A DNA stretch of 23,289 nt, taken from a virus. Of the stretch, positions 11,375 through 18,819 are shown one piece after another. A program made the position numbers and the translations under genes. The stretch is taken from the IMG/VR virus record IMGVR_UViG_3300007734_000491, positions 1 to 23,289 of that record, one strand, 5' to 3'. The first letter of the stretch is position 1, and every line of letters begins with the position of its first letter. The notes below the pieces were generated by a model. That model was not told the DNA's origin and did no database searches. It saw only the letters and a program-made list of their open reading frames with translations.

Positions 11375-13651
11375 GTGCAATTCTTGGATTTTATCACGGC
11401 GCTCGCGCCCGAGGGCGAAACTCTGCTGCTGGTGCGGCAGAAACCACAGATGCGTGGCGGCGAAACGCAGTACCACGCCGATGGCGCAATCAAGGCCACA
11501 TGGCCTGCCTACCTGCCCTCACACGGCGTCCGGGCTGGCGAGGCTTGGTATGGCAACACCGCCAGCTTCATCGTTGACCGCTTCCAAGACGGGCGGGTGT
11601 CGGCGTCGTCAGCCAATTGTGAGTACTGCGCCGTCATGGTGCTGGACGACATTGGTTCCAAGAGCAAGACCCCGCCGCTGCCGCCGACTTGGGTGATGGA
11701 GACTAGCCCAGGCAACTACCAGTGGGGCTACGTCTTTAGCGAACAGCCGCCCAAGGGCGAGTTTGCCGCTGCCATCAAGGCCATCGCCGCTGCTGGCTAC
11801 ACCGACCCCGGCGCCTGCAACCCGGTTCGCAACTTCCGGCTGCCCGGCTCCGTCAACCTCAAGCCCGACAAGGGCCAATTTGCGTCTGCTTTAGTCGAGT
11901 TCCACCCCGAGCGCGAGTTCGTACTGGCCGACATCTGCGCCGCTCTGGGCGTGACGCCCGGCCCGGCCGAGTCCTCCGGCCCCCGCCCGATTCGGATGTC
12001 TGACGATGGCGCCGACGATGTGCTGCTCTGGCTCTCGGGCCAGGGGCTGCTGCTCAGTCGCCCCAACGCCGAGGGCTGGGCCGGGGTCGTCTGCCCGAAT
12101 AACGCCGAGCACACCGACGGCAATCCAGAGGGCCGTTATATGCCCCTGAACCGGGCCTTCTGCTGTATGCACGGCCATTGTGTCGATCTGGACAGCAACT
12201 CGTTTCTGGCATGGGTCGCCGACAACGGCGGCCCCCGTCACGCCCCCGGCCTGCGTGACGACCTGATGGCTTTGCATCTTGAGTTGGCCCTCGCCAAGAT
12301 TAAGCCTAGCCCTGAGTACCCAGATGCGGCTGCTCAGGTTATTGCCGAGGTTGAGCTGCGCGAGTTAGGCCGAGTCGAAAAAGCCAGCTGGTATTCTCGG
12401 TTTGCATACCTTCAGAACGACGAGGCGTTTTTTGACCTGCAAGACCGCCGCGAGTTGTCCAGGCAGACTTTTAACGCTCTGTTTCGCCACGTCAAGTGCG
12501 TCTCGGTCCACTCGACCGGCAAGGGTGCGCGGCGCATCGAGGCCAGCGTCTGCTACGACGAGAACCGCCAGGCGGCTGGCGCCAAGGCTCTGGTCGGCAT
12601 CACTTACGCCGCTGGCGAGTCGGTGCTGGTCGCCAAGGATGGCCTAGTCTACGGCAACCGCTGGCGCAACGCTCGACCGGCGCCCGCGGCCTGTGACGTG
12701 AGCCGGTGGCTGCGTCACGCTGAGCGCATGGTGCCTGTCGAGTTCGAGCGCGAGCATCTCCTGAACGTGCTGGCGCACAAGGTCCAGTACCCCAGCCACA
12801 AGATCAACCACGCCGTGCTGCTGGGCGGCAAGCCCGGCTCCGGCAAGGACACCCTGCTGGCCCCGTTCTTTTGGGCGGTCGGCGGTCCCGCTAAGATCAA
12901 TTGTTCCATTGTCAAAAACGACGACCTCACGTCGCAGTGGGGCTACGGCCTTGAGTGTGAGGTCATGGAGATAGCCGAGCTGCGCCAGGCCGAGGCCAAG
13001 GACCGCCGCGCCCTCGAGAACCACCTCAAGCCCGTCATCGCCGCCCCGCCCGAGTACCTGCCCATCAACCGCAAGGGCCTGCACCCCTACATGGCCTTGA
13101 ACCGGGTGCTGGTGGTCGCCTTCTCGAATGAGCGCGTGGCGATATCGCTGCCTTCGGACGACCGCCGATGGTTCGTCATCTGGGCCGAGGCCGGGCGGCT
13201 GCCCGAGGCCGAGGCCGTGGCCTTGTGGAATTGGTACCACCACCGAGGCGGCTTTGCTGGCGTGGCCGCGTGGCTGATGGCCCGTGATGTGTCGGCTTTC
13301 AACCCGTCGGCGCCGCCGCCAATGACCGAGGCCAAGTCCATCATGGTCGAAGCTGGCATGAGCACGGCCGAGTCCGTGCTGGTCGAGATGATGCGCGAGC
13401 GCCGTGGGCCGTTTGCCTCCGGCGTCATCGGTTCGCCGTTCCACGTCATCTGTGACCGGGTCCAGGGGTCAGGCGCCGCAGCGCCCGGGGTCAAGATCGT
13501 CCAGGGCGCGCTTTTCCACGCCCTGCGCGAGGCCGGCTGGGCCGATATGGGGCTAGTACACTCGCGAGAGTTCAACGCCAAGAAACACGTTTTTGTGGCG
13601 CCTGAACTGATCGGCATGAGCAGGTCAGAGATGCGCCGGGCCGTGGCGTAA
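11375..13651 (+). CDS. Primase-helicase: AEP/RepB-like primase, zinc finger and SF3-type helicase, 758 aa
   Basis: The start is GTG 11375 with a strong AAAGGAGG 4 bases upstream. The N-terminal domain fits the RepB-type archaeo-eukaryotic primase: the metal-binding VLDDIG (D91, D92), then NPVRNFRLPGS (about 149-159). A zinc-binding segment follows (C240-P-x4-H246, then FCCMHGHC at 262-269), as in D5-like proteins of other phages. The helicase domain carries Walker A GGKPGSGKD at 484-492 and downstream features of the SF3/DUF5906 group (MEIAELR; FSNE; DDRRWFVIW). The C-terminus has a small winged-helix-like region. It should make primers and unwind DNA for the polymerase just upstream. All key residues appear intact. 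It is the last gene of the plus-strand operon and converges on the minus-strand operon at 13711. Confidence 0.9.
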   Translation: MQFLDFITALAPEGETLLLVRQKPQMRGGETQYHADGAIKATWPAYLPSHGVRAGEAWYGNTASFIVDRFQDGRVSASSANCEYCAVMVLDDIGSKSKTPPLPPTWVMETSPGNYQWGYVFSEQPPKGEFAAAIKAIAAAGYTDPGACNPVRNFRLPGSVNLKPDKGQFASALVEFHPEREFVLADICAALGVTPGPAESSGPRPIRMSDDGADDVLLWLSGQGLLLSRPNAEGWAGVVCPNNAEHTDGNPEGRYMPLNRAFCCMHGHCVDLDSNSFLAWVADNGGPRHAPGLRDDLMALHLELALAKIKPSPEYPDAAAQVIAEVELRELGRVEKASWYSRFAYLQNDEAFFDLQDRRELSRQTFNALFRHVKCVSVHSTGKGARRIEASVCYDENRQAAGAKALVGITYAAGESVLVAKDGLVYGNRWRNARPAPAACDVSRWLRHAERMVPVEFEREHLLNVLAHKVQYPSHKINHAVLLGGKPGSGKDTLLAPFFWAVGGPAKINCSIVKNDDLTSQWGYGLECEVMEIAELRQAEAKDRRALENHLKPVIAAPPEYLPINRKGLHPYMALNRVLVVAFSNERVAISLPSDDRRWFVIWAEAGRLPEAEAVALWNWYHHRGGFAGVAAWLMARDVSAFNPSAPPPMTEAKSIMVEAGMSTAESVLVEMMRERRGPFASGVIGSPFHVICDRVQGSGAAAPGVKIVQGALFHALREAGWADMGLVHSREFNAKKHVFVAPELIGMSRSEMRRAVA

Positions 13652-14347: not shown

Positions 14348-14522
14348 CGCACACCTCCCGGATGATGACCGCCCGGCGTGTGCCGAGCGGGTAGAACCGG
14401 CGCCCTTGATAGACCCAGGCGCCGCCGCTCATATGCCGAATGTCCCAGAACCGGCCCCGGCGGTGGTTGTAGGTCACCGGGCCGCTACTGGTCATTTGAA
14501 ATTTATCGTGCCAGAACGTCAT
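14337..14522 (-). CDS. Small basic/aromatic protein, 61 aa
   Basis: ATG 14522 is preceded by GGAGGTGTGCG, the same 11-base leader as the next gene. The product starts MTFWHDKFQMTSSGPVTYNH, continues with RRGRFWDIRH and a GGAWVYQGRRF segment, and ends VIIREVCDAD. It is rich in Arg, Trp, Tyr and Phe and is probably a small beta-rich domain. It overlaps both neighbours (20 bases upstream, 11 downstream). No catalytic motif is seen. Small basic proteins of this type are common in early accessory clusters of phages; the function is unknown. Confidence 0.65.
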   Translation of the reverse strand: MTFWHDKFQMTSSGPVTYNHRRGRFWDIRHMSGGAWVYQGRRFYPLGTRRAVIIREVCDAD

Positions 14523-14838
14523 CGCACACCTCCATGCTGTCTTCGCCCTCGGGTATGCTTACCCGGTCGCTGAGGCCCTCATAGAACCCGGCCAGGTTAG
14601 CGTCGCCGTAGGGCGCCGCCGCGCCCTTAAAATTGTTTCGGTTACTATTTAGTGCATAGTACTGCGCGACGTAAGCCGCCGTTGACAGGCTGGCGCCGTC
14701 GGCCGGGTACAGGCGGCCGCAGCCGCCCTTGGGCCTGACAGGCTTGTGTTTGCCTGTCAATTTTAAAATGTCCGACAGAAAGGTATGCCGGTCATCGCGC
14801 ACCGTGTACCGGGCGCGGTTGAGGGTGATTGTTTTCAT
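14503..14838 (-). CDS. Small protein, 111 aa, function unknown
   Basis: ATG 14838 makes an ATGA overlap with the stop of the upstream gene; a GTG at 14850 in the same frame is less likely. The product opens MKTITLNRARYTVRDDRHTF, followed by a SDILKLTGKHKP segment, a Gly/Lys region with one Cys (KGGCGRLYPADG), an Ala/Tyr helix (TAAYVAQYYALN) and an acidic tail. Mixed alpha/beta, soluble, no known motif. It sits in the middle of the small-gene operon. Confidence 0.65.
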   Translation of the reverse strand: MKTITLNRARYTVRDDRHTFLSDILKLTGKHKPVRPKGGCGRLYPADGASLSTAAYVAQYYALNSNRNNFKGAAAPYGDANLAGFYEGLSDRVSIPEGEDSMEVCDDVLAR

Positions 14839-15044
14839 ATTGTCACCCACCGAAAACCAGTAAATATCGACCGCTCGTCGCGGCGGACTGGCTCACCGTC
14901 TACCAGGATGACAAGCGTACCCTCTCCGTACAGTTCCCCGCGCACGTATGCGCGAGCGGCCCGGACGGCCGCCAGGATCGACGGGGCCGCCCGGCTGCCG
15001 TTGAGGTAGCTGCTATTGTTTTTTGCTGTCCATGTAATTTTCAT
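14835..15044 (-). CDS. Small protein, 69 aa, function unknown
   Basis: ATG 15044 follows AGAAAGTACACT. The product (MKITWTAKNNSSYLNGSRAA, then PSILAAVRAARAYVRGELYG and a VILVDGEPVRRDER segment) is a beta-helix-beta type small domain. The gene follows the first of two duplicated intergenic hairpins, with 36 bases between hairpin and start. Its stop overlaps the next start (ATGA). No family is recognised. Confidence 0.65.
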   Translation of the reverse strand: MKITWTAKNNSSYLNGSRAAPSILAAVRAARAYVRGELYGEGTLVILVDGEPVRRDERSIFTGFRWVTI

Positions 15045-15736: not shown

Positions 15737-16396
15737 TTAGGCCGCGAGCCTTAGGTTTATAACCCGATGGCGCGAGCCGTGGGCCGGGAAACCGACGATA
15801 GCGGTGCGCTGACGCTGACACAATTGGCACGTCGCGCAACTTACGTTGTCGCGCTGAGTGGCCGGGCAGATAACCACCGGGCGCCCTTTCGGCGTGGTGG
15901 TGTTGGTTGTTTGCGTCGACGGCAACACCACCACCACCGGCCCGGCGGCGTGGTCGGCTAAAGTGTCGGCGTCGGCCAGATCATTGGCGCTCAAGTTAAC
16001 TGTAAACCCCCAATTATTGGCATGGCGGATCCACGCGATAGATTCGGCATCCCGGTGGTGGCTATAGGTGAACCCCCGGCGGCCGGTATTGGCCGCTACC
16101 AATTGGCCGAGCGCGGCGGCGTCGATTGTGCCACCGGACTGTGGCAGATCCCCAGCTTGATTGTGACGCCACAATTGGCCGTCGGGCAGCGCCGCTATTG
16201 ATTTGGTAAACGTCGGCCAGTCTGTACCGCGCTCGCCAGCGCTGACAGCGCGCCAGTGCAGGGCCAGGGGGCCACTGGCCGCGTAGCATTCTTTTTTCAT
16301 GGCGCAGTCTGTTGGGCACGAATCGCTGGCCGTGGTGCTGACGGGGATCGGTCCGGTTTTCGCGTTCGCTGACTTGATTGTCAAATGTACTTGCAT
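15737..16396 (-). CDS. DUF7227-like Cys-rich phage protein, 219 aa
   Basis: ATG 16396 has AAGGAAAG close upstream; 11 further codons to 16429 run into a leader hairpin and are not used. The N-terminus (MQVHLTIKSANAKTGPIPVS) is followed by DSCPTDCAMKKECYA with Cys 27, 31 and 37, then SGPLALHW. A second Cys group lies near the end (VICPAT with Cys 177, then CATCQLC with Cys 187, 190 and 193), followed by IVGFPAHG. These features match a family of uncharacterised phage proteins that I know as DUF7227. Six or seven conserved Cys suggest a metal or iron-sulfur site. The spacing C-x3-C-x5-C is near but not equal to that of radical SAM enzymes. It is the first gene of the operon. Family assignment fair, function unknown. 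Confidence 0.7.
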   Translation of the reverse strand: MQVHLTIKSANAKTGPIPVSTTASDSCPTDCAMKKECYAASGPLALHWRAVSAGERGTDWPTFTKSIAALPDGQLWRHNQAGDLPQSGGTIDAAALGQLVAANTGRRGFTYSHHRDAESIAWIRHANNWGFTVNLSANDLADADTLADHAAGPVVVVLPSTQTTNTTTPKGRPVVICPATQRDNVSCATCQLCQRQRTAIVGFPAHGSRHRVINLRLAA

Positions 16397-16419
16397 GGTA
16401 CTTTCCTTTACTGTATTAA

Positions 16420-16443
16420 GAGAGGGCAAAAATCTGCCCTCTC
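16420..16443 (-). promoter_or_regulatory. Leader hairpin upstream of the DUF7227-like gene
   Basis: GAGAGGGCA (16420-16428) pairs with TGCCCTCTC (16435-16443), nine perfect pairs around a 6-base loop. In the minus-strand transcript it ends 23 bases before ATG 16396, just ahead of AAGGAAAG. It may stabilise the 5' end or act as an attenuator; only two T follow, so termination would be weak. Confidence 0.6.
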
Positions 16444-16519
16444 ACCCATAGAGCATAAGAGAATCGTGCCAGCACCTAGGCAAGCGCGGTAACGCATTGA
16501 TTTGTAACAACATTTTGCA

Positions 16520-16540
16520 CACTAGGGGAAACCCTTAGTG
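16520..16540. repeat. Hairpin CACTAGGGG-AAA-CCCTTAGTG
   Basis: Nine pairs including one G-T, closed by a 3-base loop. It lies at the start of the GT-rich part of the non-coding region and is not followed by a T tract. Confidence 0.6.
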
Positions 16541-16647
16541 CGTGTGTGTCAGTGTGTGTCGGCGTGTGGGCAGTGTCGCGGGCATGGCGCCCTGCTCTGA
16601 AAATGCCCCTTTGTGTGTCATGTGTGCCATTGATCTTCTAAACCTAA

Positions 16648-16679
16648 GAAAATATATATACTGTATATAACAACAGTAT
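16648..16679. promoter_or_regulatory. AT-rich patch with ATACTGT/ACAGTAT dyad
   Basis: The run from 16648 to 16672 is almost entirely A and T, unlike the GC-rich surroundings. It overlaps a perfect 7-base inverted repeat (16658-16664 and 16673-16679, spacer 8). It could be an unwinding element or a regulator site. Confidence 0.5.
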
Positions 16680-16727
16680 CATTAGTGTAGGAATTCACGT
16701 TCTCAGCGCGACTGTCAAACAAAAAAA

Positions 16728-16754
16728 CATGACCCACATGACCCACATGACCCA
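16728..16754. repeat. Three tandem copies of CATGACCCA
   Basis: Three exact 9-base units in a row. The period equals that of the larger array 70 bases further on. Confidence 0.9.
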
Positions 16755-16765
16755 CAAACGTAGAT

Positions 16766-16811
16766 TGTGTGCCATATGTGTCAAGAGCCACGATGACACA
16801 CATGGCACACA
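16766..16811. repeat. 18-base inverted repeat (TGTGTGCCATATGTGTCA arm)
   Basis: The left arm is 16766-16783 and the right arm 16794-16811, with 17 of 18 positions complementary and a 10-base spacer. On the minus strand the odd pair is G-U, so the RNA would form a complete stem. Confidence 0.85.
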
Positions 16812-16823
16812 CTGGCCGTGTGG

Positions 16824-16886
16824 CTGGCCGTGCTGGCCGTGCTGGCCATGCTGGCCATGCTGGCCGTGCTGGCCGTGCTGGCCGTG
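16824..16886. repeat. Seven tandem copies of CTGGCCRTG
   Basis: The unit is 9 bases, five copies with GTG and two (third and fourth) with ATG at the end. A further single unit lies at 16812-16820, offset by TGG. The flanks on both sides carry GGCACACAC. Confidence 0.92.
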
Positions 16887-16953
16887 TGCTGGCACACACG
16901 GCACACGCCCAGAGCGATATCCACAATGCTAGTAGGGTTTTTTATGGCTGCGG

Positions 16954-16988
16954 ACCCCCCCCTTAATAAAACGGCGGGGGGTTATAAT
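16954..16988 (+). promoter_or_regulatory. Possible late promoter: TATAAT behind a C-tract/G-tract hairpin
   Basis: A perfect TATAAT stands at 16983-16988, 45 bases before the terminase small subunit. A standard -35 is not evident (CTTAAT or similar only). A stem of ACCCCCC (16954-16960) with GGGGGGT (16976-16982) occupies the -35 region. An activator or phage factor might be needed here. Confidence 0.4.
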
Positions 16989-17033
16989 TGCACAGCCAAA
17001 CACACACCGAAAAAATTTTTTAAAAAATAACCC

Positions 17034-17423
17034 ATGTTTCAAAGTTTGCCCTTTACACCGCGCAAAATAGAAGCAACCGAATCGCGGTTAAACAAAATTT
17101 ATGAGGCCGCTAAATTAGGGTTAAGAGGTGATACGTTAGCGTTGGCTGCGGGTATGCTGCCCACCGAATATAGGCAGCTAATGCAATTTGACCCTATTGC
17201 TGAAATAGCAGCGCAAAAAGGCAAAGCCGACGCTGAAATTGAAATGTCTATGTGTTTGCATACCGCAGCGCGCGAAGGCGACGCTAAAGCGGCGCTGGCA
17301 GTTTTGCAACACGTTCATGGCTGGGTAAGCAAACAAGCTGCAATCAACATCAACATAGGCGATTTACGTTTAGAAGCTCTGCGTCAAGTTGAAATAACCG
17401 ACAATGTTTTGATCAATGAGTGA
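17034..17423 (+). CDS. Terminase small subunit, 129 aa (putative)
   Basis: ATG 17034 follows an A/T-rich leader without a strong ribosome binding site. The gene lies directly before the terminase large subunit and overlaps it by 8 bases, the usual order. The N-terminal half is helical (RLNKIYEAAKLGLRGDTLAL, then AAGMLPTEYRQL), which reads as a helix-turn-helix for recognising packaging DNA. The rest (ADAEIEMSMCLHTAAREGDA, then KAALAVLQHVHGW) is helical and suited to oligomer formation. The repeat-rich region just upstream is a natural candidate for its binding site. The assignment rests on position, size and helix pattern; the sequence is not a close textbook match. Confidence 0.75.
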   Translation: MFQSLPFTPRKIEATESRLNKIYEAAKLGLRGDTLALAAGMLPTEYRQLMQFDPIAEIAAQKGKADAEIEMSMCLHTAAREGDAKAALAVLQHVHGWVSKQAAININIGDLRLEALRQVEITDNVLINE

Positions 17424-18819
17424 AAACCCGTTCCTCGCCTTTGCCAAGCTGTACAAAAGCAACCCAGTGCTGTTTGTCAAGGAAGTGCTTGGCGTTAAGC
17501 CTGACCTTTGGCAGGAGGAGTTCCTCGGACACATTGCAGCAAACAACAGGCGCATCAGTGTCAGGTCAGGGCATGGTGTAGGCAAGAGCACGGCGGCGTC
17601 CTGGGCCATCATCTGGTATTTGCTGTTGCGGTTTCCGGTGAAGATTGTGGTTACCGCCCCTACCAGCAGCCAGCTGTATGACGCCTTGTTTGCTGAGTTG
17701 AAGCGGTGGGTCAAGGCGCTGCCACCGACACTGCAGGAGCAGCTGGAGGTGAAGCAGGACCGCATTGAAGTGAAGGAGGCACCCACCGAGGCGTTTGTCA
17801 GCGCCAGGACATCACGCGCAGAGCAGCCCGAGGCGCTGCAGGGGGTACACTCAGAGAATGTGATGCTGGTGGCTGATGAGGCCAGCGGTATACCTGAGCA
17901 GGTGTTTGAGGCGGCAGCAGGTTCAATGTCGGGCCACAAGGCTGTAACTTTGTTACTAGGTAACCCGGTACGCAGCAGCGGTTTCTTCTTTGATACGCAC
18001 AACCGCCTAAAGGATGACTGGGTGACCATGAAGGTGAGCTGCGCCGACAGCCCAAGGGTAAGTGACGCCTACATGGAGGAGATGAAGGTGCGCTACGGCG
18101 AAGAGTCCAACGCCTATCGGATACGGGTGCTGGGTGAGTTTCCGCGCAGCGATGACGACACAGTGATACCGATGGAGTTGCTGGAGGCGGCTATCAACAG
18201 GGATGTTGCCATGAGTCCCATTGCCAGTGTGGTGTGGGGACTGGACGTTGCGCGGTTTGGGAGTGACAGATCAGCACTGTGCAAGCGTCAGGGGAATGTG
18301 ATAACTGAGATCAAGACCTGGAAGAATTTGGATTTGATGCAGCTCACTGGTGCTGTGATGGCAGAGTACCAGGCGCTGCAGCCAAGCCAGCGTCCCCATG
18401 AGATCATGGTGGACAGCATTGGGTTGGGTGCTGGGGTGGTAGACAGGCTGCGTGAATTAAAGTTACCAGCAATTGGCATCAATGTGGCAGAATCCCCGGC
18501 ATTGGGGAGTACGTATCGGAATCTGAAGGCTGAACTGTGGCACAAGGCTAAGGCTTGGCTGGAGAAGCGAGACTGCAAGATTCCCAAGGATGAGAGTCTA
18601 ATTGCTGAACTGGCGACAGTGCGGTACTTCTTCACCAGCAGTGGGAAGATTCAGATTGAGGGTAAAGACGAGATTCGCAAGCGTGGCCTGGCGTCACCCG
18701 ATAAAGCAGACGCATTCTGCTTGACCTTTGCCAGCGATGCGGGAACTGCGATGTATGGTAGTTTTGGCGGTACTAAGTGGGGGCAGGGTATTAGACGTAA
18801 CTTAACGAGGGCAGCATGA
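17416..18819 (+). CDS. terL: Terminase large subunit, 467 aa
   Basis: ATG 17416 overlaps the small subunit gene. The ATPase domain has Walker A SGHGVGKST (51-59) and Walker B VMLVADE (149-155, with D154 and E155). Coupling segments such as TAPT (80-83) and LLLGNP (179-184) are also present. The C-terminal RuvC-like nuclease domain shows the acidic triad D277 (GLDVAR), D333 (MVDSIG) and D432 (SPDKADAF). The length is normal for the family. The enzyme cuts concatemeric DNA and drives it through the portal, encoded four genes on. The stop overlaps the next start (ATGA). All key residues are present. Confidence 0.95.
   Translation: MSENPFLAFAKLYKSNPVLFVKEVLGVKPDLWQEEFLGHIAANNRRISVRSGHGVGKSTAASWAIIWYLLLRFPVKIVVTAPTSSQLYDALFAELKRWVKALPPTLQEQLEVKQDRIEVKEAPTEAFVSARTSRAEQPEALQGVHSENVMLVADEASGIPEQVFEAAAGSMSGHKAVTLLLGNPVRSSGFFFDTHNRLKDDWVTMKVSCADSPRVSDAYMEEMKVRYGEESNAYRIRVLGEFPRSDDDTVIPMELLEAAINRDVAMSPIASVVWGLDVARFGSDRSALCKRQGNVITEIKTWKNLDLMQLTGAVMAEYQALQPSQRPHEIMVDSIGLGAGVVDRLRELKLPAIGINVAESPALGSTYRNLKAELWHKAKAWLEKRDCKIPKDESLIAELATVRYFFTSSGKIQIEGKDEIRKRGLASPDKADAFCLTFASDAGTAMYGSFGGTKWGQGIRRNLTRAA

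Follow-up and report, generated by a model that had tools for sequence, protein, structure and literature searches.

Phage P4 carries short iterons at its ori and crr sites, and the origins of Staphylococcus aureus pathogenicity islands (SaPIs) hold two iteron sets flanking an AT-rich region. The P4 alpha protein is described as multifunctional, combining origin recognition, helicase and primase (in a reference cited in PMC9611036), and in SaPI Rep and in Cch2 of the staphylococcal cassette chromosome mec (SCCmec) the iterons are bound by a C-terminal domain (PMC7581432). In RepA of the Vibrio phage-inducible chromosomal island-like element (PLE) the DNA-binding domain changes in step with the origin and has undergone repeated swaps, cognate pairs being required (PMC8263062). 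NrS-1 polymerase needs a specific 8-nt sequence for priming (PMC8718748, PMC7102993), and the NrS-1 genome has two copies of this site and no iteron array (PMC7102993). Here we describe a repeat-rich gap at 16397-17033 of the virus record IMGVR_UViG_3300007734_000491, flanked by a divergent DUF7227 gene on the minus strand and a small-terminase-like gene (TerS) on the plus strand. The window analysed is the entire IMG/VR record, a genome fragment of 23,289 bases.

We read the gap as an iteron-type replication origin of this freshwater phage that is recognised by the C-terminal domain of the phage's PrimPol-helicase, with a probability of roughly 0.77 as judged from sequence comparison. Two opposed sets of contiguous 9-bp iterons, TGTGKGYCA, flanking an AT-rich patch would constitute the origin. 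The winged-helix-like C-terminal domain of the PrimPol-helicase would bind the iterons, the protein would load as opposed ring helicases and open the AT-rich patch, and its N-terminal primase domain would then prime synthesis by the phage family A polymerase. A LexA-like box within the patch may also, for some members of the group, link this region to SOS control by the host. The following elements lie within the gap.

16522-16538: imperfect dyad CTAGGGGAAACCCTTAG beside the first iteron; many relatives have TAGGTGTTTACCCTTAG there
16543-16561, plus strand: iteron TGTGTGTCA (16543-16551) and one-mismatch copy TGTGTGTCG (16553-16561)
16612-16629, plus strand: iteron pair TGTGTGTCA/TGTGTGCCA left of the AT-rich patch, at the same position in relatives
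16636-16690: AT-rich patch between the opposed iteron sets, candidate strand-opening element, at the same place in relatives
16661-16676: LexA/SOS-box-like dyad CTGTATATAACAACAG inside the AT-rich patch, putative function
16730-16756, minus strand: iteron triple (TGACCCACA)x3, which is TGTGGGTCA on the minus strand, facing the left pair
16766-16783, plus strand: iteron TGTGTGCCA and degenerate TATGTGTCA, left arm of an 18-base dyad
16794-16811, minus strand: iteron pair TGACACACA/TGGCACACA, right arm of the 18-base dyad
16823-16886: GC-rich tandem array, GCTGGCCGT x7
16890-16907, minus strand: iteron TGGCACACA and degenerate CGGCACACG

As in iteron origins, short direct repeats are arrayed here in non-coding DNA, and they form head-to-tail pairs and triples that face one another across the AT-rich patch. 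TGTGKGYCA is found at 16543, 16553 (one mismatch), 16612, 16621 and 16766 on the plus strand and at 16730, 16739, 16748, 16794, 16803 and 16890 on the minus strand. The best 9-mer, TGTGTGTCA, has 12 copies in the gap (at most one mismatch, both strands), compared with a mean of 3.5 and a maximum of 6 in 60 dinucleotide shuffles. Repeated 9-mers number 73, or 30 without the GC-rich array, whereas 637-base pieces from elsewhere in the window average 5.6 and reach 22 at most; TGRCMCACA matches ten times inside the gap and has no other match in the 23.3 kb. A preliminary description of this DNA had listed GT-rich direct repeats, a recurrent short motif, two 9-base tandem arrays, an 18-base dyad and an AT-rich patch, all of which were recovered: GTGTGTGTC is exact at 16542 and 16552; GGCACACAC is exact at 16804 and 16891 and has near copies; ACATGACCC occurs 3.3 times at 16727-16756 and GCTGGCCGT 7.1 times at 16823-16886; the dyad arms, 16766-16783 and 16794-16811, are part of a 29-nt inverted repeat (79%); and the AT-rich patch is found around 16636-16690. 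What that description overlooked is that the GT-rich, ATGACCC and GGCACAC repeats are a single 9-bp unit, TGTGKGYCA, in two orientations. A phage nucleotide search returned no record spanning the gap.

Relatives were obtained by scanning the viral contigs of IMG/VR with TerL, PrimPol-helicase and iteron patterns, which yielded more than 200 loci (numbered L below). The phages of this pool are mosaics, and their hosts may, as a guess, be freshwater Burkholderiales. Nearly all loci with a window-type PrimPol-helicase (66-93% identical) have a repeat-rich gap before terS, with any TerL. They have the layout in common, that is a pair, an AT-rich patch and an opposed pair or triple, and differ in the sequence of the unit: TGTGTGYCA in type A, TGTAGTCAW in type B, TGTDGGYNN in types C/D, and rarer others. 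A TGT anchor is shared across nearly all unit types. Loss of all repeats in close relatives, which according to the preliminary description would have argued against a function, is not what is seen, since the layout is kept in dozens of them. The position of the GC-rich array is also kept in relatives, with units and periods that differ (7, 8, 9 and 11 bp), and the array is hypervariable (26 copies in L108, 14 in L109, 17 in L156). A-like iterons before terS, in the same opposed layout, were also observed in phages with other structural genes (L205, L208, L211, L217, L219, L221, L226 and L237), several of them apparently marine.

The proposed reader of the iterons comprises the following features.

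11375-13651, plus strand: PrimPol-helicase of 758 residues, proposed initiator
13364-13648, plus strand: its C-terminal domain, residues 664-758, predicted winged-helix-like and proposed to bind iterons
13553-13630, plus strand: codons 727-752, holding ten positions that separate A- from B-iteron phages

Like P4 alpha and SaPI-like initiators, this protein contains a primase and an SF3/D5-like helicase: a RepB_primase domain at residues 90-165 and a DUF5906 AAA+/SF3 (superfamily 3) domain at residues 484-598, both above Pfam cut-offs. The helicase domain matches the NrS-1 primase-polymerase (PDB 6k9c/6k9e, E 1e-7). The model of the C-terminal domain (predicted local distance difference test 70) has the order helix-helix-helix-strand-strand-helix, with residues 729 and 734 in the beta-hairpin. 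Its structure matches by Foldseek and VIA-align are weak winged-helix proteins (best Z 6.9); the P4 origin-binding domain is not among them, an absence that does not exclude a relation. A profile search of the domain in PDB gave chance-level matches only. Of 13 searched records that lack a window-like primase, five encode a DUF5906 primase, among them records of the phages with other structural genes and A-like iterons; where its C-terminus could be read, it differs.

In order to see which gene tracks the iteron type, 27 A loci were compared with 19 B loci (46 in all). Ten columns of the PrimPol-helicase split A from B perfectly, all within residues 727-752 of 758; when the distant L173 was included in a first pass, five of the ten remained. 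Around the putative wing, A types read (V/I)HSR[ED][FY]N[AS]KKH and B types RLTSRE[FY]P[ST]KKH. No separating column was found in the polymerase, g8769, DUF2800 or TerS (the TerS set has two B loci only), nor in a small gene at 14503-14850 on the minus strand (MKTITLNRARYTVRDD...), which lies between primase and origin in 45 of the 46 loci. Lacking such columns, the polymerase, g8769, DUF2800 and the small gene were rejected as iteron readers. Small samples gave three separating columns for SNF2 (10 loci) and two for DUF7227 (11 loci); the latter was rejected as well, the gene being undetected in many A-iteron loci. A tree built from primase residues 1-650 requires four changes of the A/B label, which its well-supported branches make necessary. 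In all four independent pairs residue 729 (H or T) changes along with iteron type; these pairs include the window (A) with L085 (B; 93%), its closest relative by primase, L103 in the L086 group and L016 among B loci. It is this co-switching of iteron type with residues 727-752 that leads us to propose the PrimPol-helicase C-terminus as the iteron reader. Six further contigs found via iteron patterns alone (L188, L197, L212, L222, L227 and L233) obey the rule; being close relatives, they provide a modest test. Among other loci outside the set, L173 (primase 57%) combines A iterons with an A-like wing, LHSREFNSKKH; in L040 the wing, LVHSREFPTK, and the iterons, TGTGGGYAG, are both hybrid; L272, a contig of a metagenome-assembled genome (primase 61%), has the wing RLASRDHTTR and iterons TGTWAGCAA. 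DnaA boxes show no excess (3 in 72 loci), which fits a self-sufficient initiator.

The iteron gap and the primase C-terminus sit in one 3.5-kb stretch and several genes between them are mosaic, so a single recombination tract could have carried both, with another protein as the actual reader. We consider such hitchhiking unlikely, since the exchanged patch appears to be local. Between L103 (B) and L087 (A) the drop in identity, to 58-71%, is confined to codons 728-758 and some 50 bases beyond them; identity is 85-92% before the patch and 88-100% after it, for 0.5 kb. The window and L085 show a similar pattern after a longer dip, 81-98% identity being regained between patch and gap; the picture downstream of the patch is less clear for L016 and L015. 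The high flanking identity in the L103 and L085 comparisons shows a local patch for at least two switches, and as that of L103 is flanked by highly similar DNA, linkage alone does not explain the co-switching. The near-universal small gene between primase and gap, moreover, lacks a separating column, and DUF7227 is undetected in many loci that do have A iterons.

The genes bordering the gap are arranged as follows.

15740-16396, minus strand: DUF7227 gene, divergent left border of the gap
17034-17423, plus strand: small-terminase-like gene (TerS), right border of the gap
17416-18819, downstream of the small-terminase-like gene: TerL (PHROG 2)

With the repeats directly upstream of a small-terminase-like gene, they could be a packaging (pac/cos) site read by the adjacent TerS; lambda and SPP1 are known to have repeats close to terS that TerS binds. 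The preliminary description had considered this option, and we find it very unlikely, given that the repeats do not co-vary with the small terminase. A iterons are found beside a window-type TerS and, in the case of L016, beside a TerS whose N-terminal domain is unrelated; B iterons occur with both, and TerS has no column that splits A from B in a set with two B loci. Iterons persist with unrelated TerL, yet are missing from L005-L008 and L012, in which a 97-99% identical TerL accompanies another replication module. By this co-segregation TerL and TerS were both rejected as iteron readers. The small terminase of the window is itself chimeric: its N-terminal part resembles TerS of phages with a 30%-identical TerL, and its last 25 residues resemble TerS of phages with 92-97% identical TerL. 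That these C-terminal residues follow TerL type fits a contact with TerL. Phages with the other TerL (L085, L086, L103, L128, L135) have a conserved block upstream of terS that starts AGGGCCGA and ends CAAACAA(T/A)TTTTT just before terS; it is absent from the window and is possibly a packaging or leader element. Between terS and terL, about 110-155 bases before terL, a conserved dyad CTGTATAGACGTACAGCCCC (or CTGTATGGATGTACAGCCCC) is present in L015, L016, L017, L024 and L039. Contig ends near TerL are explained equally well as termini or as assembly breaks at mosaic joints. End overlaps of 80-127 bases make four of the eight long relatives (G018, G020, G023 and G025; 35.7-38.3 kb) look circularly assembled and near complete.

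Alternatively the gap could chiefly be a transcriptional switch, with operators for a phage repressor and a LexA box between divergent promoters. Divergent genes do border the gap, which presumably holds divergent promoters, and a CTGT-N8-ACAG box, as in LexA-controlled promoters, is present in the AT-rich patch. This box, which the preliminary description had overlooked, occurs there in most A loci (20 of 27) as well as in L085 and L103, and is exact as TACTGTATATATATACAGTA in L092 and L102. On the other hand, twelve 9-mers over 370 bp exceed usual operator needs, the A/B iteron type tracks the primase, and the box is missing from nearly all C/D loci. Promoter and terminator scans did not rise above chance level. 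No tyrosine integrase was found in 11 long relatives, which makes lysogeny doubtful. A purely or mainly regulatory function is thus improbable in our view, although a regulatory role can coexist with a putative origin, given the LexA-like box in the AT-rich patch. Among the three options of the preliminary description, namely origin, packaging site or master switch, the origin gains from the layout kept in dozens of relatives and from the switching of iteron type with the PrimPol-helicase C-terminal patch, and the packaging site loses.

Several observations weigh against an origin read by the PrimPol-helicase. The A/B switches that are independent number only four, for which a sign test gives p 0.125 and is unable to pass 0.05. 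In a clade with 66-68% primase identity the wing is constant, RLASREYQTK, and the iterons (TGTTGGCTA, TGTTGGCAG, TGTGGGTCA, TGTAGGTCA) vary at position 4 as well as at positions 7-9; not every base can therefore be set by the wing. L147 and L148 (primase 66%) have no recognisable iterons. Confidence in the model of the C-terminal domain is moderate, and none of its matches stood out as a solved origin-binding domain. Finally, GC skew, which had been suggested as a check, gave no clean signal: none of eight long relatives shows a V at the gap, and the measure was uninformative.

When compared with described replicons, the best reading is that the window origin would work like the P4, SaPI and PLE systems. 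With P4 alpha it shares a primase and an SF3-type helicase in one protein, short iterons and a replicon-encoded initiator. It differs in that the window primase is of the archaeo-eukaryotic primase (AEP)/RepB type with a DUF5906 helicase, in that the iterons are contiguous 9-mers in one gap beside terS, 2.7 kb from the gene, and in that no homology was found between the window C-terminal domain and the P4 domain. As in SaPIs, two iteron sets surround an AT-rich region; in SaPI and SCCmec, however, the origin directly follows the helicase gene and a separate protein serves as primase, whereas in the window the origin is remote and the primase fused. PLE, a satellite and not a phage like the window, uses an unrelated initiator, RepA_N, with an N-terminal binding domain and semi-palindromic iterons of about 30 bp. 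The NrS-1 helicase domain is matched by that of the window PrimPol-helicase, but NrS-1 has two sites where the window has an iteron array, and its C-terminal region has Head and Tail domains whose folds are described as entirely new. Literature searches, which covered few subscription papers, gave no description of this origin.

More tentatively, wing and iterons could act as an exchangeable compatibility lock, in which a patch of about 150 bp is repeatedly swapped and an array of at least ten iterons is converted as a whole 3 kb away, hybrid wings reading hybrid iterons. Such exchanges might perhaps allow escape from origin-targeting satellites or nucleases, and a short wing code, from residues 727-734 to iteron positions 4-6, might be readable from sequence.

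Few replication origins of uncultured phages are known, and for the C-terminal domain of D5/NrS-1-like PrimPol-helicases a function has mostly not been defined. The natural recombinants described here are a ready-made experiment that ties a short protein patch to a DNA unit. If the proposed binding is true, origin, initiator and part of the recognition code could be deduced from the sequences of many freshwater phages, and the repeated swaps would raise the question of what selects for an altered origin identity.
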